Shown in pieces: positions 1 through 10,543 of a DNA stretch of 21,252 nucleotides (position 1 is its first letter; every line of letters begins with the position of its first letter). The translations under genes were made by a program, and so were the position numbers. Below the pieces are notes generated by a model. It was not told the origin of the DNA. It searched no databases and saw nothing but the letters and a program-made list of their open reading frames with translations. This stretch comes from a virus, in IMG/VR virus record IMGVR_UViG_3300030329_001459, positions 1,949-23,200 of that record. One strand, written 5' to 3'.

Positions 1-3000
1 ATACTTCATTTAACGTAGATGTATGTGAATCCATTTCATCTTGACTATCGTAGTACTTACCTGAAAGAGCTTTAAATTTATTAAATAGTGATCTAACATT
101 ATCACTAGTAATAGCCCCTAGTTCTTCAGTAGAAGTTATTTCACCTTTAGGAAAAGCGTCTAAAGAATGAAGACCCAATTTTTTACCTAATTTTGTAAGT
201 TTTATATCTAAATCTTTATTATAAGCAGGAAATAAATTAGTTTGCTCTCTATAGTGTTTATTAAAATTACCACTATCTCTAGATATCTTTGGGTTATAAC
301 CCATAGATTTTCCCATTGCTTCAAAAGATGTAAAGCTAAATGTTTCTGTATTCTTATTATAGTTTTGTTCAAACTCATTTAGTGTGTCAGTTTCAGATAA
401 TTCTTCATTAGATAAATTATACATATGGTCTATATTAGTGTAGCCATCTTCTAGTAGCTTTTGTCTTTGCTCACGTACTTTTTGTGTAATTGCTTTAGCT
501 CTTTCAGATATAACACTAAGACTAGATTTGTCATTCCACTCAAGGTATTCTGGATTAGCTTCCCATACACGCATTTTTACTTTATCTAATCTAGTAAGTG
601 TTTTACCTACCTTGGCATTCTTAAATCCCATTCTCAATCTGTCAGCGTCAAGTTTATGTTCCTTTATAAAATCATTTAATTTTGCAGCTTTAGTTCGATT
701 ATCTATATCTTGTCTAAACTCTTCCATTAATTGAATAGCTTTAGCAGTTAATTTTTCTTCTCTAGCTATTCGTTTTTGTTCTTTCTCAGTTAGTTCTATA
801 GCATCTACTATATCTTTACGATCTGTATTACGCAGAACCCCTAGCATTTGATTATGCATTGCTTCCATAATGCTATGGGTTGTATTGAGTTCCCAGTGTA
901 TTTTGTTATAGGTTCTTGTTAAGTAATTTGCCCAATTACTACTGGCATTAAATCCATCATGAAGAGCATTTATTTCTGCTTTTTTCAAAAGTAGCCTAGT
1001 CATAGCTGATGCGTCTTGGTTGATAACCTGACGAATTAGCACAGCTAATCCAGCTGCATCGAATACCAATGATCGTTTAGGTGTAGATCTGGATGTATCT
1101 TTTTGTCTTTCACGATCATAAAAGTTAATTTCAGCTTGGTTCTCTTCTATATCACCTTTGTTAGTTGTAAATTTAGTAGAACTTAAATCAATACCACCTT
1201 CAATTGTTCCATCTTGGAGCCTTGTAGCTAAAGCACCAGCTACTTGAGGGTAGAATTTCATTAAGCCTTGTTTATCCTTAACCAGATCAATAACTTCTTG
1301 TTTAGTTAAACCAGGCCTAACAGCCCTAAGTTGCTCAGTAGCCTTATCCTCAATAGCTTTGCGAGTCTTCGCTGCCATGTTTTTAGGAGCAGGTTTGCCT
1401 GTTTTCTTATTAGTAATGCTAAAGCCATCTTTAGTCTTTATAACGTTAAACGTATAGGCGCCTTGTGTAACTTCAACAGGTACATCTTCCATAACAGGGG
1501 CATCTAAATTAATTTCATCTAATTTATTCTTAATAGCCTCTTCAAAATGAACCATAAATACTTGGTGTAGTACGTCTCCCATTTCGACTATTGATTGTCG
1601 AGGTTCTACAGTATCCCCAAGTAACTCATCTAAACTAGCTTCAAATCTAGGAGCAACACGAGTATTTAATTCTGCACGTACCTGTATGTCATTAAGCTTT
1701 ACTTTAAAAGCAGGAGGAGTTATACCTAAATCTTTTTTAGTACCTTCTATTAACATTCGACCAAGAGCTCCTCGATCTGTTTGATTAAATGCATTTAGTG
1801 TTTCTAAAGCATCCATAAAAGGTGTAATAATTTGCTTTTCATAATTTTTTCTATTTTCAAAAAATCCATATCTTTTGTATTTATGGGTGTCTACAGGAAG
1901 CGCTGTTTTTGAGGTTTCTTCTACCAAATCTCTTAGTACATCTGCATGGCTAGGTTCCGACAATGTCGTGTAGTAAACTAATTCTTTATCATCTAAATTA
2001 CCATCACCAATTTGTTTACGAATCCATTTTCTACGGTTAGGTTCTACATCTTGATGGGCTGTACCCTCTAACCATGCTTTATAATTATTAACAGCAGTTT
2101 TTATATCTGGTGTTTTGATAGTACCTGGGATATCTCTAGACGCCCAAGGATTTCCAAAATGCTGAGATGCAGTTAATCCTGGAATAGTATTAGAATTAAA
2201 AATTCTTAATGTATAAATTCTATTTGTAAGATCTTCTTTAGCATATTGTTTAGCGTCTGGTACTCCTTTTCTATTAGTAACTTTAGTAAGGAATGCAGGT
2301 ATATCTGAACGTAGGAGTTCCTCTTCTTCATTATTAAAAATCTCTTTGTATTCTTTTTGAATAGTACTAATTCGTGAGTACATAGCTTTATTTACTTCAT
2401 TACTTACCTCATTAGCTATATTAGCTATTCCTCCACCATACATCTTCATAATAAAAGGATACTTAACAACCTCCCTCATAGATTCCTGATCTCTAAACTC
2501 TGGATAGATAATTATAAGAGCGGCATTAATCTTGTTATAGTCCTCTTTAAAATTAGCTTCTCCCTCTTTTGTCAGAGTATATCTTTTTTTATCAACTAGG
2601 TCTTTTGACACTCTTGAAAATACTTTTTTCTTATACTTATCTTTGTACCATTCCCAAGCAACATCAGCAGAGTCATTATTCTGCATAAATTTAACTAGAT
2701 CTTCATAAACACCAGGTTCTTTTGGATCAAAGGACTTATCTTTAAGATTATGGCCTACTTGACTATTCTTACGTATACGTTCTTCTTTGTCCCACATAGG
2801 AAACTGGAGTACATTTATAGCCCAACCATTAGAAGTACCGTCCCTTTCAGTATAAAGATCAGTTTCAAAAGTAGATTTTGATTTGTCTTCAATTCGTCTA
2901 AAATTCTTAGTATATCTTTTATTTCTACTTGGATAACCTGCTTTAGTTTTCTGAATAGCTTCTACTGTCATGTATTTAGATAATGCAGTAATACCATTTA

Positions 3001-6000
3001 GGAGAGTAATATCAGCTTCTTTAAATGTATTATCTTTTTTAATTGCTGATAAAGCTGAGGATAGATCTTGAGAAGCTCTGTCTTTATCCTTCTTAGCCTT
3101 GGCATCTTTAGGTTTAGTTCTAAGAATTCCTTTAGCGGCATTAAGACGTTGCATAGCTTCTACAGCTGCTAGAACATTTGAGTGATTAATAATATTCTGA
3201 AAGGCTTCTTCTGATTCAACTAAATCTTTTTTCTCTACAGCAAAAGCTTCATTAATTGCTAATTTAAAATTAGTAAACTGTTGTTCATTATCTACGGAAA
3301 TTTTATTAAGTCCCCAAGCACCTACTAAGCCTCTAGTAAGTTTACTATTTTGAGGATTAATCTTACCTACCTGCATATACCTATGGTGGCTTTGTAATTT
3401 CCAAGCTAAATGAAATGCTGTTAATTCCCCACGATCATATGCCTGTAATAGTTCCTGCAAAGTATCTAGCATTCCATTATTTCTAGATGTTTTACTGGCT
3501 ATTTCAACGTCATGGAATAATTGTATTTTTTCACCATCCTCAGTAGTTTCGTATAACTCCTCAACATCCATTAGCTCTTTCAAGACATCTGTGTCTCGTA
3601 AATCAGCCACAAGATCCATGGACTCTAATTTACTCCATACAACATTTTGAAGTCTTTTAAGTGTTTCATAAACTTCCCCACCTTTAGGAGCTTCTGTAAA
3701 AGTACCTGTAGATGGGTTTATTGGAGGAGGAGTTTGAAAAGGGCCAGGACTATTAATCATATTAGCCTTAGAGATACTTTTCATTTCTTCTAAGGCATCA
3801 AAAGTACTTTGGTTCCATTTTTGATTTTCATCTACTTTAATATGTAAGTAATGCTGTTGTTGTTCTAATGGTATAGGTTTACCTTCTGGATATTTTTTTC
3901 TAATCTCTTCATTATCAGAGACTTTTTCATGCGTAGGTGCATTGTTAAAAGCCCTATTTTCATTGTAATCATCAAAATTCCAATATTTTTTCTCTACAGA
4001 AAAATAAGCACCTTTATCAGTGCCTTGAGCAATTTCTAAGGCCATCATTCCAAGTGCAGGAGCTAGGAGTTCAAAATATAGATCCGCTCCTACTTGGTCT
4101 ATAGGACTGTCTTTAGGGATTTTTTTAGCTCTTAGATCTAAAATACTAATAGCATGGTTTCCCATATCCATAGCTGCATCATGGTACCCAAAACCAACGT
4201 CATTAAGTTCCTCATCTTCATTTCTATTAAGTGTTTGGTTCTTACCACTATATAGAAAAGCTTCTTTTGCAAAGTCGTTATCCTTAAATCTATTATTGTT
4301 AGGGGTACGTTGTCTAAAAGACATAGCTGTTAACATCATGGTAAATACTATCTGATTAGGTAGTACACCTTGATTGTTATTACCAGTAGGATCTTCTTGA
4401 AGAAGTAAAGTTAACGGGGCTCTTAAAGCATGATTTCTAACATTTAATAGTTCAGATGTAGGCAATACCTTAGTCGTGGTCTGAATATTACCAGATGCAT
4501 CTTTAATCTCTCTACTTACTCTAGTGTATTGACCATCTTTATCATATGCATCATTTATGTCTCTACTTAATTCTTCTACTTTCCATAGAATAGGATTCCC
4601 ATCTTTATCTACGTCTGTAACATTATTAACCGTCCGTATTACAACCTCTTTTCTTGATAAATCTATAGAACTAACTTGATCATATCTATTTTTAAAATGC
4701 GTAAAGTTTTTAGATAATGTTTCAGCCGATGCTTGTGTTACACCTAAATTCATTAAGGCATTAACTAACGATTCCTGAGTATCAAAATCTTCATCCATCA
4801 GAGTATTAACAGCATCTTTTAATGTAGGTCGTGTGGATCCGATTTGAACTAAGTCTGTAAAATACGCACCAAGTACTTTTAACTGCCGTTCTAAATTAGT
4901 AGCCGTTAATTTACCGCCTAATACTTTAAGTACACCTCCTGTAATAGCTCTTTTGTATATTCGTTTGCTGCCTTCAATAAAATTAGGAAACAGATTTAAT
5001 TGTGTTCCTTTTTCTGTTGTATCTTCGGCAGATCTGTCGAATAACGAGAGTTGCTCTCCTTTTTCACCCGGTCTAGGAGGTGGAGTAGTCTCATCAAAAG
5101 GTGTAGTAGTTGGGCCAGGTGGTTCATCAGATCTTTCAGGGACTTCACCTTCTGGAAAAAGGTCAAGTTGTTCTCCTGGTTCTGCTCCTTCAATCTTTTC
5201 TCGTCCTTGAATTTCTTTATTGAGAGCAATATAGCTTTGTTGGAGAGATTCGTGTTCATTTTTTTCCTCTGGAGTTATTGTACCCTCGTCTATTTTCTTT
5301 TTAAGTTCCAACCCTCTTTGTAAAATAGCTTCTAGGTTTTCTTTAAGAATAGCAGTCGGAGTTGTAGGAATGTCTTCAACTGATATTCCCTCTATTGTTG
5401 CTTCATCTATTTCAGGTGCTTTAAGAGAATCTTTAGCTTTTTTTAATCTTCTTAAAACTTCTTCGTGTTCAGCAAGATTTCGGGCTTTATTGAATTCATT
5501 TTTAGCCATAGAAGTATTTCTATGTCCTTCAACTACCCCCATAATCCAATTACCATAATTTACTTCCCCAGCAAGCGTATCAATTAATCTACCTGAGTTT
5601 TTATCTATTTTTGTAACATACGCAAATTTTCCATTATATAATTTCTTTTTATGTGCTTCATCAATTTGAGTCTCGGTCATATCTGTTACTACTTCATAGG
5701 TCATATCTCTACTATTTTCAGCTTTAGTACCCACAACAGCTACGGCTTTACCAGTACTAGTAAATATTTCATAGGCATTATCAAATGCATTTAATTTATT
5801 GTTTATATTAGTAGCATGAGTACGCATATCTGAAACAAGAGATTCAAGTCGTCTTGTGAGTTTTACATGATCTGTTAATTCAGTAAGGGCTGTTACAATG
5901 TCTGTGTAGTAAGCATGTAATCCTTTAAATTTCTTGCTCTCCCCTTCAAGAATTTCCTCATGTACCGTTGCCATATCTTTATCAATAGCGTCTTGTTTTT

Positions 6001-9000
6001 CACCTCTTTCTTTTTGAATTCTTTTTTGATTAAGTTTAGCTGTCCAGAATTTTATGTCATCTGGGGACTTGGCTTCTGCTAATTTCTTTTCTAATTCTTC
6101 TGGAGTTAACTTTTCTATTTCATCAAGCCTATCTTCTAATGACCCTAGAACTCTCTTACCAGTTCCTATTTTTTCTTCTAGTTCTTTTATTTCTTTTGAG
6201 AGTTGTTCTCGTACTTTTGTAATCTGTGCATCAGTTAAATCTTTATCAATTAATGCCTCTACATGATCTAATTTTGTAGAAGGAGTTGTATCAGTTCGTG
6301 GTTTATTTCCAAATATTAATGAATCAATTGGGACAGTTTCAGTTACTCCTGCAAGTTTTACATGAACCTTCCCATCTCTTTCTTGTTTGCCTAGGATTGT
6401 TTCAATAACAAATCCTTGTTCACCTTTTTTAAGTAATTCTTCATCAGTTGTATTTAAATGAACTACGTCTCCTGGTTTAAACTTTCCACTTGGATCAAAA
6501 TTCGTAATATCTGGATCTTCTTCTTCGCTCATCTTTTTAATTAATGTAATTTGAGCATCAACTTCTTCATCTGAAATTTTGTCTACATCTCTACCTGTTC
6601 CATCAGCCCTAAATCCTTTTGGATTTGCGGATCCTGGCATAGTCGGAGACTTAGGACTTGCTTTATATGATTCATTTTCAAGTACCTTAGTTCTTCTATC
6701 ATTAACGTCTATTAATTGTTTTTCATAGACTTTGAGCATTGTTGGGTTAAGAGGAGCTTGCAACTCATTAAGCAATTTATCCTGTTTTTTAATTGCTCCT
6801 TCTAGGTATGTAGCATGTTTCTGTTCTTCTATTTTAATAGCTTCCTGTTTTTTCGGCCCAGGTATGTCACTTTGATTAATCTTTTCAACATTACTCTTAT
6901 GTTCAGCTATTTTTGTTTCTAATTGGAGTTCAAGTTCTAAGAGTTCAGTCATTTTTCTTGCCCCAATCCCTACAGGTACTGCTTTGCCCTCATGTTGTAC
7001 ATATTCAACAGTATCTTCAAGTGTGATTGGATCAGGCAGTTGCTCTTCTAAATTAGTTTTCTCTTCTAGTCTTTTCTCTATTTCAGCTTCTAAATCATCA
7101 TTCATTGCTTCGATAGCGTCATCTAATGACATGGCACCATCTGAAACTAACTGTTCATAAGGCTTATATAGCTTTTTCAGTAAGGTATTAGTAGTTTCCA
7201 GTTTTCCAGGTCGACCAGGTAAACTTAAAGTTTTACCGTGTAGATTGGGTATTTCATCATAAGCATCTTGTAAATCAGTTAATTGTTCAGTAAGAGCGTC
7301 TAATTTAGATTTTAAATTAGAAGGTGCTTCTTGCATCTTTTTAATTTTTTCTATTTTTTCTTGAGTGCTCTTTATTTCATTTTCAATTTTTTGTTTAGTT
7401 GCTTTGTCTGTTTTAGCTGCTGCTTTCTTTCCAGAAGGATCCCATGCTTTTTTAGCAACTTTTTTAGTTACCTCTTTGGCTGTTCCTCCAACTGCCATTG
7501 CTGGTGCCATAGTACCAACTGCAAATCCTTCTGGAATTCCTCCTTCAACTGCTGCTTTACCAATATCAACTTTTTTCTGTAATGCCGCTTGTTCCAGCAT
7601 TGAATTAGTTGTTCCTTGTACAAACTCAGCACCAAACATTTTAGGAGGAGCCCATACTACTTTACCTAACGTACGTACAGTAGGATGTATAGTTGCCAAT
7701 ACACCATTCGTTATCTGTGTGCCCCATAAACCAGCACCACCTAATCCTGGGATTAATTTAAGTTGTTTTACAACTATACCTGCACTTACTTTTTCAGATA
7801 CTTCTTGTAAAGTAGAAAATATTTTAATATCCGTAAGTATTTCAGGTGTTAATGCCTTTTCACCATGCTCGGCAACATACTGCTCAATATTAGCCTTAGT
7901 TCTGCCTCTAGCTAAGCCAGTAAGTAGCCCAAGTTGGACAGGTATATTTCCATATACTAATGCTACCGTATATCCAAAACTATCAAGACCTTGTAGGGCA
8001 AGAGTACCTTTGTATTCTTTAAATAGCTCTAAAGCTGCTGCCGCATTGCCATGCTCTTTAGCAATTACACGCATTGCTGTAGTAGCACTTTCAATATATT
8101 TTCTATTATATGGATGTGCTTCATGCCATATTTTAGAGAATTCTTTAAGCTTAGCTTGTTGGTCTTGGTTTTCTTTCGCATCCTTATCTAAAGTAGCAAT
8201 TACTTGATACTTTTCACTATCCTTAAATGCCTGCAACTCAGCTGATAGTCCTTTATTTTCTTGAATTGCTAAATAGTTTAATTTGTCTTGCTGAGTAATT
8301 TCATCATTAGGATCATGTGTAATAGACGACAGAAAACTTCCAGCTTTAAGTCTATTATTATGATCATTAATATGTTCTGTTAAAGTTGTAGCTCCTACAA
8401 ATCCTTGAAATATAGTTTCAACAGGATCAACTAAACCTCCTACTAATTTATTGTACATTCCTGATACTGATGTTTCTTCAGGATGATCCAAAAGATTAGC
8501 TTGATAGTTTGCAATATCATAAGCCATGAATACTTGAGCTTCGATTTTATCGCTAAAAGGCATCCATGTACCGTCTTGTGTAAGTAGACGATATGTTCCA
8601 TCTTGTAATTCTACTAAGTTACGATTTACAGATACTATTGGAGATGATGGAGTAAAATCTGGTAGTTTATAAATTTCTTTAATCAGTGCTTCATTAGGAG
8701 TTTTGTAAGAACTGTATAAATCCTCATAAGTTTTAGCCTCAGCAGGGCGAGGAGTAGCAGGACTATAAATATTTTCACTAACTGTTTTTGGTACAGATCG
8801 AGGACTATAAATATCTGGCTCTGGAACATCTATTTGCGGAACTGCTTCTGGTGTTACTTCTGGTACCGTTTCTGGAACTTCAGGAGTAACAGCAGGTTGT
8901 TGATAAGTTCCTTTAGGATCAGAAATAATTTCTGCTCTCTTTGTAAGAGCTTGTTTACGTTTGTTATCAAAATAAGCAGAATCATGTTTATCTTCTATAA

Positions 9001-10543
9001 TTTTTTTATTGGTCTGGACATTGTCCATAATGGTATCAAGACCAGAATTTAAATACTGATTTGCGGAAAGATCCTGACGTCCAGTTGCAAAATCTCCATA
9101 ACCACTAAGACTATCCACACTAAACTTCTTTTGTTTTTTACGGCTACTTAGTTCTTGATCTATTCTTTTAAATTTTCGTTGTTCTGCTTGCAGTTTTTCT
9201 GCTCTTGCACGGTCTTTACCTGGATCTCTTCTATCTATATCAACACTAGGAGGTTTAGTAATAGGTGTAGGAGGCTTGTGCTCTTTAAGATGAGGTAATT
9301 TGTGAGTAGGTGTTAAAACAACTTCTTCTTTATCTGCCTTATTAGTAATTTTTCTAAGTTCATCTATTCGTTTAAATTCTCTTCTTTGTGCTTGTAGTCT
9401 TTCAGCTTTTCTACGATCTGCCCCAGTATCTCGTAAATCTACATCAGCAGGAGGAGCTTCTTGTACAGCCTTTGCAATACCACCAGGAGCACTAATATCA
9501 ACAGATGGATCAATTGTTTTAATAGGAGGAGGTGTTGGTTTGTCTTCTGGTTTATGTGTTTGACTAGATACTGGCTTGGACGTCTCCTCAACTGCTTCTG
9601 GCATTTTTGTAACAAACGGTGTTTGAGGAGTAGGTTTAGTAAAATCTTGTAATACACCATCTTTGTAATGAATTTTTTTCCAATGCCCCATACCTTCTTT
9701 AAAACTATCAAGATCTTTACGTTTTTTGGTAGCTACTTTTTTTCCACCAGGGCCTTCTTTAACTCCACCTTTAAATGGTCGTTGTTTAAATAGAGCAATA
9801 CCAGCAGTTTCTATTTCTTGCATTGTAGGATGAGTTTTTTTAGTTGCTTTAATAGCTTCCAGCACACGACTAAAACCAGTATTATATGATGCAGCAGCTA
9901 ACTGTTGAGCTTGTCGTTCGTCAAATCCTTTAAGTTTCCATCTATTAACATGCTTAGATAAGTACTTAGCTCCAGCATACAACTGATGAGCGGCATTATT
10001 TACATCGCCACCAGGTAACATTTCTTCCATGGTTTGTTGTGTTACTTGAGCTATACCTCTAACATTGGTTGGAGATTTAGCAGTTTGTTTATTGCCTGAT
10101 TCTTCAAAAACTAACGAACGAAATAATGCTTTAGGAAGTCCAAATTCTTCAGCAGCTCCATCTATAGCCGTAAAAATCTCATTTTCTTCTGTAAAAGATT
10201 TAGGAGTAGTAAGAGGGTCAGCTGTTACATCTGTAACTACAGGGTCTGGATTTACTTTATCAGAAAACGTAACATTACCAAATTCACCTGTAGATAAAGT
10301 ATCACTGTTAGTACCGACTACATTGGGAGTTGCCCCACCCATACCATATTTGTGATTTATAACCTGTGCTAATCTAGTAGCTTTAAGATTATGGACACTA
10401 TTGCGTTTAGCATTTAGTACATTAGCTAAACTAGCGGCTTTAGTCTGTAAAAGGGAGTCTCTTGCGGAAGGTTTTGGTGGAGTTGCGCCATTAGTTAACG
10501 CTTGAACAATGTCTGCGTTATGTAGCTCTTCTTTAAGTGCCAT
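1..10543 (-). CDS. Giant virion RNA polymerase with N-terminal lytic transglycosylase (partial)
   Basis: At least 3514 codons without a stop, running off the left edge. It corresponds in place and type to N4 gp50, the polymerase packaged in the virion and injected to read early genes. Domains: lytic transglycosylase (about 125-235; E148-S-G, GIAQV 163-167, ASYNTG 218-223); two copies of a basic helical repeat (367-394, 434-462); a hydrophobic and helical region (about 860-1035); coiled-coil-like sequence (about 1048-1300); a small SH3-like stretch (about 1354-1416); a Pro-rich linker with QLDLF, QLSLF and QLNLF (1792-1852); then a T7/N4-type polymerase. Catalytic residues: R2388 (HHRYMQVGKINPQNSKLTRG), motif A DGTSNG with D2568, motif B R2690-x3-K2694-x7-Y2702-G, motif C HDGF with D3196. 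Motif B spacing equals T7 R627/K631/Y639. The ATG lacks a ribosome site. Fusion with the transglycosylase and the clamp motifs are unusual. Confidence 0.95.
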   Translation of the reverse strand, partial: MALKEELHNADIVQALTNGATPPKPSARDSLLQTKAASLANVLNAKRNSVHNLKATRLAQVINHKYGMGGATPNVVGTNSDTLSTGEFGNVTFSDKVNPDPVVTDVTADPLTTPKSFTEENEIFTAIDGAAEEFGLPKALFRSLVFEESGNKQTAKSPTNVRGIAQVTQQTMEEMLPGGDVNNAAHQLYAGAKYLSKHVNRWKLKGFDERQAQQLAAASYNTGFSRVLEAIKATKKTHPTMQEIETAGIALFKQRPFKGGVKEGPGGKKVATKKRKDLDSFKEGMGHWKKIHYKDGVLQDFTKPTPQTPFVTKMPEAVEETSKPVSSQTHKPEDKPTPPPIKTIDPSVDISAPGGIAKAVQEAPPADVDLRDTGADRRKAERLQAQRREFKRIDELRKITNKADKEEVVLTPTHKLPHLKEHKPPTPITKPPSVDIDRRDPGKDRARAEKLQAEQRKFKRIDQELSSRKKQKKFSVDSLSGYGDFATGRQDLSANQYLNSGLDTIMDNVQTNKKIIEDKHDSAYFDNKRKQALTKRAEIISDPKGTYQQPAVTPEVPETVPEVTPEAVPQIDVPEPDIYSPRSVPKTVSENIYSPATPRPAEAKTYEDLYSSYKTPNEALIKEIYKLPDFTPSSPIVSVNRNLVELQDGTYRLLTQDGTWMPFSDKIEAQVFMAYDIANYQANLLDHPEETSVSGMYNKLVGGLVDPVETIFQGFVGATTLTEHINDHNNRLKAGSFLSSITHDPNDEITQQDKLNYLAIQENKGLSAELQAFKDSEKYQVIATLDKDAKENQDQQAKLKEFSKIWHEAHPYNRKYIESATTAMRVIAKEHGNAAAALELFKEYKGTLALQGLDSFGYTVALVYGNIPVQLGLLTGLARGRTKANIEQYVAEHGEKALTPEILTDIKIFSTLQEVSEKVSAGIVVKQLKLIPGLGGAGLWGTQITNGVLATIHPTVRTLGKVVWAPPKMFGAEFVQGTTNSMLEQAALQKKVDIGKAAVEGGIPEGFAVGTMAPAMAVGGTAKEVTKKVAKKAWDPSGKKAAAKTDKATKQKIENEIKSTQEKIEKIKKMQEAPSNLKSKLDALTEQLTDLQDAYDEIPNLHGKTLSLPGRPGKLETTNTLLKKLYKPYEQLVSDGAMSLDDAIEAMNDDLEAEIEKRLEEKTNLEEQLPDPITLEDTVEYVQHEGKAVPVGIGARKMTELLELELQLETKIAEHKSNVEKINQSDIPGPKKQEAIKIEEQKHATYLEGAIKKQDKLLNELQAPLNPTMLKVYEKQLIDVNDRRTKVLENESYKASPKSPTMPGSANPKGFRADGTGRDVDKISDEEVDAQITLIKKMSEEEDPDITNFDPSGKFKPGDVVHLNTTDEELLKKGEQGFVIETILGKQERDGKVHVKLAGVTETVPIDSLIFGNKPRTDTTPSTKLDHVEALIDKDLTDAQITKVREQLSKEIKELEEKIGTGKRVLGSLEDRLDEIEKLTPEELEKKLAEAKSPDDIKFWTAKLNQKRIQKERGEKQDAIDKDMATVHEEILEGESKKFKGLHAYYTDIVTALTELTDHVKLTRRLESLVSDMRTHATNINNKLNAFDNAYEIFTSTGKAVAVVGTKAENSRDMTYEVVTDMTETQIDEAHKKKLYNGKFAYVTKIDKNSGRLIDTLAGEVNYGNWIMGVVEGHRNTSMAKNEFNKARNLAEHEEVLRRLKKAKDSLKAPEIDEATIEGISVEDIPTTPTAILKENLEAILQRGLELKKKIDEGTITPEEKNEHESLQQSYIALNKEIQGREKIEGAEPGEQLDLFPEGEVPERSDEPPGPTTTPFDETTPPPRPGEKGEQLSLFDRSAEDTTEKGTQLNLFPNFIEGSKRIYKRAITGGVLKVLGGKLTATNLERQLKVLGAYFTDLVQIGSTRPTLKDAVNTLMDEDFDTQESLVNALMNLGVTQASAETLSKNFTHFKNRYDQVSSIDLSRKEVVIRTVNNVTDVDKDGNPILWKVEELSRDINDAYDKDGQYTRVSREIKDASGNIQTTTKVLPTSELLNVRNHALRAPLTLLLQEDPTGNNNQGVLPNQIVFTMMLTAMSFRQRTPNNNRFKDNDFAKEAFLYSGKNQTLNRNEDEELNDVGFGYHDAAMDMGNHAISILDLRAKKIPKDSPIDQVGADLYFELLAPALGMMALEIAQGTDKGAYFSVEKKYWNFDDYNENRAFNNAPTHEKVSDNEEIRKKYPEGKPIPLEQQQHYLHIKVDENQKWNQSTFDALEEMKSISKANMINSPGPFQTPPPINPSTGTFTEAPKGGEVYETLKRLQNVVWSKLESMDLVADLRDTDVLKELMDVEELYETTEDGEKIQLFHDVEIASKTSRNNGMLDTLQELLQAYDRGELTAFHLAWKLQSHHRYMQVGKINPQNSKLTRGLVGAWGLNKISVDNEQQFTNFKLAINEAFAVEKKDLVESEEAFQNIINHSNVLAAVEAMQRLNAAKGILRTKPKDAKAKKDKDRASQDLSSALSAIKKDNTFKEADITLLNGITALSKYMTVEAIQKTKAGYPSRNKRYTKNFRRIEDKSKSTFETDLYTERDGTSNGWAINVLQFPMWDKEERIRKNSQVGHNLKDKSFDPKEPGVYEDLVKFMQNNDSADVAWEWYKDKYKKKVFSRVSKDLVDKKRYTLTKEGEANFKEDYNKINAALIIIYPEFRDQESMREVVKYPFIMKMYGGGIANIANEVSNEVNKAMYSRISTIQKEYKEIFNNEEEELLRSDIPAFLTKVTNRKGVPDAKQYAKEDLTNRIYTLRIFNSNTIPGLTASQHFGNPWASRDIPGTIKTPDIKTAVNNYKAWLEGTAHQDVEPNRRKWIRKQIGDGNLDDKELVYYTTLSEPSHADVLRDLVEETSKTALPVDTHKYKRYGFFENRKNYEKQIITPFMDALETLNAFNQTDRGALGRMLIEGTKKDLGITPPAFKVKLNDIQVRAELNTRVAPRFEASLDELLGDTVEPRQSIVEMGDVLHQVFMVHFEEAIKNKLDEINLDAPVMEDVPVEVTQGAYTFNVIKTKDGFSITNKKTGKPAPKNMAAKTRKAIEDKATEQLRAVRPGLTKQEVIDLVKDKQGLMKFYPQVAGALATRLQDGTIEGGIDLSSTKFTTNKGDIEENQAEINFYDRERQKDTSRSTPKRSLVFDAAGLAVLIRQVINQDASAMTRLLLKKAEINALHDGFNASSNWANYLTRTYNKIHWELNTTHSIMEAMHNQMLGVLRNTDRKDIVDAIELTEKEQKRIAREEKLTAKAIQLMEEFRQDIDNRTKAAKLNDFIKEHKLDADRLRMGFKNAKVGKTLTRLDKVKMRVWEANPEYLEWNDKSSLSVISERAKAITQKVREQRQKLLEDGYTNIDHMYNLSNEELSETDTLNEFEQNYNKNTETFSFTSFEAMGKSMGYNPKISRDSGNFNKHYREQTNLFPAYNKDLDIKLTKLGKKLGLHSLDAFPKGEITSTEELGAITSDNVRSLFNKFKALSGKYYDSQDEMDSHTSTLNEV
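956..3382 (-). other. Single-subunit RNA polymerase catalytic core of the giant protein
   Basis: Covers R2388 to D3196. Motif A (D2568) and motif C (D3196) hold the two metal ions; motif B (R2690, K2694, Y2702) binds the incoming nucleotide and selects ribonucleotides. The motif order and residues match the T7/N4 family. The A-to-B distance (126 residues) is close to N4, but the B-to-C distance (494 from Y to D) is much longer than in T7 (173) or, as I recall, N4 (273), so a large insertion sits between them. Confidence 0.9.
4988..5170 (-). other. Three beta-clamp-type motifs in a Pro-rich linker of the giant protein
   Basis: Residues 1792-1796 are QLDLF, 1831-1835 QLSLF and 1848-1852 QLNLF, each preceded by Gly-Glu or Gly-Thr. 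The bacterial sliding-clamp binding consensus is QL[SD]LF, so the first two are exact matches and the third is close. The stretch between them is rich in Pro, Glu, Gly and Thr and should be flexible. It lies about 535 residues before the first polymerase motif noted here (R2388). Confidence 0.8.
9158..9244 (-). repeat. Basic helical repeat, copy 2 (protein residues 434-462)
   Basis: Residues read VDIDRRDPGKDRARAEKLQA and then EQRKFKRID, with one extra residue near the start compared with copy 1. The DNA copies have diverged while the protein pattern is kept, which suggests selection on the protein. Confidence 0.85.
9362..9445 (-). repeat. Basic helical repeat, copy 1 (protein residues 367-394)
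   Basis: Residues read DVDLRDTGADRRKAERLQAQ and then RREFKRID. Copy 2 lies 39 residues further on. The copies share the core R-D-x-G-x-D-R-x-[KR]-A-E-[KR]-L-Q-A and the end F-K-R-I-D. Both are preceded by a Pro-rich stretch. Confidence 0.85.
9839..10171 (-). other. Lytic transglycosylase domain of the giant protein
   Basis: Residues about 125-235. The order E-S-G (E148), G-I-A-Q (163-166) and A-S-Y-N-T-G (218-223) is that of the SLT family, in which the Glu is the catalytic acid and the YN motif lines the glycan groove. T7 gp16 carries a comparable domain at its N-terminus, used to open peptidoglycan during DNA entry. All key residues are present, so it is probably active. Confidence 0.88.

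Follow-up and report, generated by a model that had tools for sequence, protein, structure and literature searches.

The window analysed here is a stretch of 21,252 nucleotides from the 24,843-base virus record IMGVR_UViG_3300030329_001459. It derives from a marine N4-like (Schitoviridae-type) virus, an assignment that follows from its major head protein, its tail and virion proteins, and its N4-type virion RNA polymerase (vRNAP). The N4 vRNAP is a model of injected polymerases, and gyrase and SSB are the host factors known to assist it. In the window, the vRNAP gene and its domains are arranged as follows:

2..10543, minus strand: open reading frame of the giant N4-type vRNAP, aa 1-3514 of about 4638 (PHROG 2206 virion RNA polymerase, E 1.4e-39)
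9833..10165, minus strand: N-terminal SLT lytic transglycosylase domain of the vRNAP, aa 127-237 (Pfam PF01464, E 4e-13)
3350..3388, minus strand: T/DxxGR-type region 'HHRYMQVGKINPQ', aa 2386-2398 (N4 residues 1410-1471 align to aa 2377-2437)
2825..2851, minus strand: RNA polymerase motif A 'TERDGTSNG' with the catalytic Asp 2568 (N4 counterpart VEADGVTNG, D1556)
2429..2464, minus strand: RNA polymerase motif B 'KYPFIMKMYGGG', aa 2694-2705 (N4 residues 1663-1703 align to aa 2690-2730)
941..967, minus strand: RNA polymerase motif C 'ALHDGFNAS' with Asp 3196 (N4 counterpart KIFDGMNIG, D1948)

The full-length vRNAP was pieced together from the overlapping loci L006 and L007, and in the part that the window covers, the assembled protein and the window protein differ by a single residue. 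With 4638 residues it is about one third longer than the N4 protein (3500 aa), and the vRNAP of L009 reaches about 4933 residues. An SLT lytic transglycosylase domain is joined to its N-terminus. As in Schitoviridae vRNAPs, the T7-like single-subunit motifs T, A, B, and C are present in a giant virion protein encoded beside N4-type head genes. PDB sequence searches with the polymerase region returned no meaningful match. A fold search with aa 1760-2740 as modelled by AlphaFold2 (mean pLDDT 67) yielded the N4 mini-vRNAP and the RNAP domain of the N4 vRNAP as best PDB matches (E 1.6e-4 to 9e-4); since the superposition is loose overall (TM about 0.24), this match gives the family, not the fine structure. 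Likewise, a tblastn search of cultured phages with the vRNAP part of the window alone gave no match, and matches appeared when the region was extended to the C-terminal domain (CTD).

Within 61 residues of the vRNAP we located three similar pentapeptides, QLDLF, QLSLF, and QLNLF (window 4988-5170, minus strand), which confirms the observation behind the original prediction. Their position just ahead of the polymerase was borne out as well, given that motifs T, A, B, and C follow at aa 2386, 2568, 2694, and 3196 and that the best PDB match of the model is the N4 mini-vRNAP. A fourth motif of this type, QTNLF at aa 3434, had been overlooked.

5156..5170, minus strand: clamp-binding-type motif 1, QLDLF, aa 1792-1796 (counterparts QLDLF in L065, QFKLF in L066, QLELPF in L071, L072, and L082)
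5039..5053, minus strand: clamp-binding-type motif 2, QLSLF, aa 1831-1835 (counterparts QEEFDF in L065, a weak QTTFL in L066, QLPL[LP]F in L071, L072, and L082)
4988..5002, minus strand: clamp-binding-type motif 3, QLNLF, aa 1848-1852, immediately ahead of the folded polymerase region
230..244, minus strand: clamp-binding-type motif 4, QTNLF, aa 3434-3438, between polymerase and CTD (site 2)
4991..5206, minus strand: predicted disordered linker from the N-terminal part to the RNA polymerase domain, aa 1780-1851 (AlphaFold2 pLDDT < 50, model residues 21-92)

The published binding motif (CBM) for the beta clamp (DnaN) takes two forms, Q-phi-x-[L/M]-[F/L] and Q-phi-x-[L/M]-x-[F/L]; the form QL[S/D]LF is credited to Dalrymple 2001 in the same review (PMC11139829). 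The three linker motifs fit this consensus exactly, and QTNLF departs from it at position 2 only. QLDLF is the strongest peptide reported, QLNLF is the motif of Pol V, and QTSMAF of the Pol III epsilon subunit is a weak binder; the flanks of CBMs tend to be acidic (PMC11139829).

The original prediction also held that three copies in a row are very unlikely by chance, and this claim stands. When a linker segment of 140 aa was shuffled 20,000 times, matches to the strict pattern Q[LIVM]x[LM](x)F averaged 0.007 per shuffle, as compared with 3 in the actual sequence, and none of the shuffles contained three. Moreover, six representative vRNAP linkers (100 aa each, 600 aa in all) contain 12 forward motifs, seven of them pentamers and five hexamers, and reversed, Q-to-N, and Q-to-E control patterns gave no match in the same 600 residues. 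The background in a 74-kb relative (G001) amounted to one hexamer-type match in 16,917 aa of its other open reading frames of at least 100 aa. At the DNA level, the three copies read CAA CTT GAC CTT TTT (QLDLF), CAA CTC TCG TTA TTC (QLSLF), and CAA TTA AAT CTG TTT (QLNLF); as their Leu codons differ, they do not stem from a recent DNA duplication. Two further candidates were discarded: QRDLF at aa 4044, for which the nearest relatives carry R or K instead of Q within a conserved CTD segment, and the Q-x-x-[LM]-F matches of L065 and L066 near window aa 4310, which belong to conserved CTD sequence and were excluded from the count.

In the AlphaFold2 model, pLDDT falls below 50 at aa 1780-1851, a stretch that spans motif 1, motif 2, and the larger part of motif 3. 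The model thus predicts for the three motifs the setting of a CBM, that is, a disordered tail, a linker, or an exposed loop. According to a structure preprint, the N4 vRNAP consists of three folded units, with a linker of about 100 residues between the N-terminal domain (NTD) and the RNAP domain (907-1007) and one of 23 residues between the RNAP domain and the CTD (2102-2123) (PMC12633501). Compared with this layout, the three motifs lie at the NTD-RNAP linker and QTNLF lies at the RNAP-CTD linker. The latter placement follows from motif C at aa 3196 and from a conserved C-terminal region that starts near aa 3465 and resembles the CTDs of N4-like phages. A second structure model covering the region of QTNLF (aa 3182-3761) was poor throughout, with a mean pLDDT of 43.

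Scans of IMG/VR provided about 20 vRNAPs that span the first linker, a number that includes near-duplicates. At the position of motif 1, the pentamers QLDLF (window and L065) and QFKLF (L066) correspond to the hexamer QLELPF in L071, L072, and L082. At the position of motif 2, QLSLF of the window corresponds to QEEFDF (L065), to a weak QTTFL (L066), and to QLPLLF or QLPLPF (L071, L072, L082). Motif 3 is a pentamer in the window (QLNLF), L065 (QLKLF), and L066 (QLGLF), and a hexamer in L061, L083, L059, L068, L056, and L057 (QLEFSF, QIEFSF, QFEFSF, QFEFPF, QLEFAF, or QLEFPF). The alignment tool placed these hexamers a few columns away; both forms share a frame in which 'GEQ..F' (G[ET]Q for the window) precedes 'NF[IV]E' at a distance of no more than a few residues. 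Site 2 carries a motif in seven genomes, namely QTNLF (window), QMELF (L066), QEEMF (L065), QTELF (L073), QTSFDF (L061 and L083), and QTEFDF (L068). Thus, equivalent positions hold a pentamer or a hexamer while most of the linker diverges among these metagenomic relatives, and key positions are kept within the varying linker in L065, L066, L061, L083, L059, L068, L056, L057, L071, L072, and L082. Within the window lineage and the L061/L083/L068 lineage, every genome that covers both sites has motifs at both; L071, L072, and L082 carry motifs in the first linker only, with none at site 2.

We also observed further clamp-type motifs elsewhere in distant vRNAPs, at aa 583 of L093 and at aa 1065, 1145, and 1080 of L071, L072, and L082, respectively (QLSLF; QFELGF), as well as a lone QLGMF in a 648-aa protein upstream of the vRNAP (L016/G005, 8312-10255).

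An absence of QLxLF from close relatives with a conserved linker, which would have refuted the original prediction, was not observed: L065 (QLDLF, QLKLF) and L066 (QFKLF, QLGLF) keep such motifs, but L055 retains part of the linker without them. L055 and L067, the sisters of the window group, have neither linker motifs nor site 2, and a helicase-bearing clade (L009, L014, L022, L025) and L091 are without motifs at both sites. Among 18 cultured Schitoviridae-type vRNAPs, including those of N4, LUZ7, LIT1, and roseophages, no tandem motif was found, only scattered single matches; one such lone CBM-like match is QMDLF in phage RG-2014, and in the N4 vRNAP the patterns applied detect nothing that resembles a CBM. 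As L055 lacks the motifs despite a partial linker and N4 lacks any, they represent a trait of a lineage and not of vRNAP biology in general, and the tandem arrangement belongs, as far as sampled, to this metagenomic group.

In a tree built on the polymerase region, with the linker left out, the pentamer genomes form one clade (support 100/98), and the hexamer genomes fall into two other lineages with motif-free lineages in between. The motif state requires at least three changes on this tree. This leaves two histories: an old motif with repeated losses, or independent gains or transfer by recombination. A clear kinship connects the linkers of L071 and L072 (GEQLELPFKEGELPKGKTPVSDE) with that of L065 (PEQLDLFPEGTLPKGTTPVSDE) despite the large distance between their polymerases, and this speaks for an old motif or an exchange of linkers.

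Taken together, the consensus match, the predicted disordered linker, the homologous positions, and the switch between pentamer and hexamer uphold the reading of these peptides as beta-clamp-binding motifs, and judged from sequence we consider it probable that they are; which of the three roles proposed for them applies is not singled out by these data. Since sites switch between the two forms during evolution, the cognate pocket should accept both, as that of DnaN does, and DnaN would accordingly be the candidate partner. Counting against this reading, motif 3 and site 2 of the L061/L083/L068 lineage carry Phe at position 4, which lies outside the published [L/M]; a Phe at this position weakened a pentamer peptide (PMC11139829). 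With respect to a clamp encoded by the phage itself, no DnaN-type gene with PF00712 was found in ten records, mostly fragments, and the T4-type clamp profile PF02916 gave no match, nor did it match its own controls. A scan of genome contigs revealed no host-linked relatives.

Among the three proposed roles, tethering fits the anatomy of the motifs best. CBM-type sequences occur in the linker at either side of the injected polymerase, three between NTD and RNAP domain and one between RNAP domain and CTD. After injection, these would dock in the peptide pockets of the host DnaN dimer, and several motifs per chain would provide avidity. A vRNAP held on clamps around the incoming phage DNA would stay with that single template and could slide to promoters and re-initiate without leaving, similar to the action of T4 gp33 and gp55 on gp45. 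In T4, the motifs that keep RNA polymerase on gp45 are carried on linkers of gp33 and gp55, and they favour a one-dimensional promoter search (PMC7892883). By analogy, we give an even chance to the notion that the linkers of the injected vRNAP dock on host DnaN as a topological tether. Slightly below even we place the fuller proposal that, in this marine N4-like lineage, host DnaN acts as a mobile tether for the injected vRNAP at the start of infection through motifs that flank the catalytic domain. Several points speak against a tether. Clamps are loaded at primed junctions, and the incoming linear genome may carry none of them early in infection. The N4 vRNAP is thought to remain tied to the inner membrane (PMC12633501). 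Finally, L055, L067, the helicase clade, and the 18 cultured Schitoviridae vRNAPs do without the motifs.

The same motif evidence would equally serve a model in which binding to host DnaN brings the vRNAP to host replication forks or helps to start phage DNA replication rather than early transcription; beta indeed targets enzymes, including transposases, to the replication fork (PMC4549789). However, the genome of the relative G001 specifies a PolA-type DNA polymerase, a primase, and a Dda-like helicase of its own, as well as an N4-type RNA polymerase subunit, and nothing connects the motif with any replication gene of the phage studied here, which renders this role unlikely. Since the vRNAP is packaged and ejected alongside other ejection proteins (PMC12633501), the peptides might instead bind a partner other than a clamp, for instance another virion ejection protein or a phage-encoded factor. 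We regard this as rather unlikely, given that a change between pentamer and hexamer at matching sites is characteristic of the DnaN pocket, that the reversed, Q-to-N, and Q-to-E patterns are missing from the linkers, and that sister genomes of the same virus type lack the motif.

The original prediction further considered that the injected polymerase might occupy the host clamp; such occupation could serve to block host replication or to free the clamp from host enzymes. Each chain offers several strong consensus motifs, overexpression of the CBM peptide MGPRQLDLF inhibits growth of E. coli, and Gp168 of phage Twort inhibits the clamp, though by a different route (PMC11139829). This role nevertheless fits poorly with the number of molecules and appears improbable, as N4 injects 4 +/- 1 vRNAP copies, probably too few for the clamps of a cell (PMC12633501; PMC4496689), even if vRNAP made later could do more. 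A chance resemblance in a low-complexity linker, to which a biased composition and lone CBM-like matches elsewhere in these proteins and in cultured phages might point, is highly improbable in view of the shuffles, the control patterns, and the recurrence at corresponding positions with diverged flanks.

The putative tether has partial parallels in known systems. The motifs share with bacterial CBMs the residues at positions 1, 2, 4, and 5/6, the pentamer and hexamer forms, and a disordered, partly acidic setting, but they differ in belonging to a virion RNA polymerase that is injected, in their number, with as many as three in a row and one more on the other side of the enzyme, and in the Phe-4 of some relatives. 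As regards motif and linker, the arrangement corresponds to T4 late transcription, where gp33 and gp55 contact gp45 through short motifs on flexible linkers and a one-dimensional promoter search has been proposed (PMC2988020, PMC7892883), with the clamp contact being putative in our case. T4 differs in that it employs its own clamp, the host RNA polymerase, and late genes, as opposed to a host DnaN-type motif on a single-chain early virion polymerase; if the phage lacks a clamp gene, its arrangement would be at most an analogue of that of T4 that uses the host clamp. With N4 gp50, the protein shares the NTD-RNAP-CTD layout, the T7-like motifs, and the linkers at the same places, and N4 provides the best PDB match of the model; gp50 differs in its length (3500 aa versus 4638 aa with an N-terminal SLT domain here) and in the lack of any CBM-like match to the patterns applied. 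Transposases with beta-binding motifs are likewise enzymes of mobile elements that carry QLxLF, reportedly at distinct locations among homologues, but they usually possess a single C-terminal motif, and their binding has been shown experimentally (PMC4549789).

Our literature search, from whose scope subscription titles mostly fell out, revealed no report that joins a virion RNA polymerase to a sliding clamp. As motif and protein family are each already known, the novelty lies in their combination, with motifs that are repeated in tandem and flank the catalytic domain on either side. If true, contact with the host clamp would bring a replication factor into early phage transcription and would be a second, independent instance of an RNA polymerase served by a sliding clamp. 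Moreover, the tandem motifs touch on an open question in the clamp field, namely the role of several CBMs in one partner (PMC11139829).

Two further peculiarities of the vRNAPs concern inserted domains. First, in vRNAPs of the sister clade without linker motifs, a superfamily 1 helicase-like domain is inserted between polymerase and CTD, namely in L009 (aa about 3060-3700) and also in L014, L022, L025, and L028, with AAA_30 and UvrD_C_2 matches in L009 and L022. Second, a segment of about 145 residues that contains 'FGNPW' is found at aa about 2748-2891 in the window (about 1871-2302), at aa 2146-2281 in L009, in the motif linker of L072, and in L022. The insert region of L022 matches DUF7831 (PF25176), and the window segment has no Pfam match. 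As its place differs among the vRNAPs of the relatives, the segment with 'FGNPW' looks like a mobile domain.
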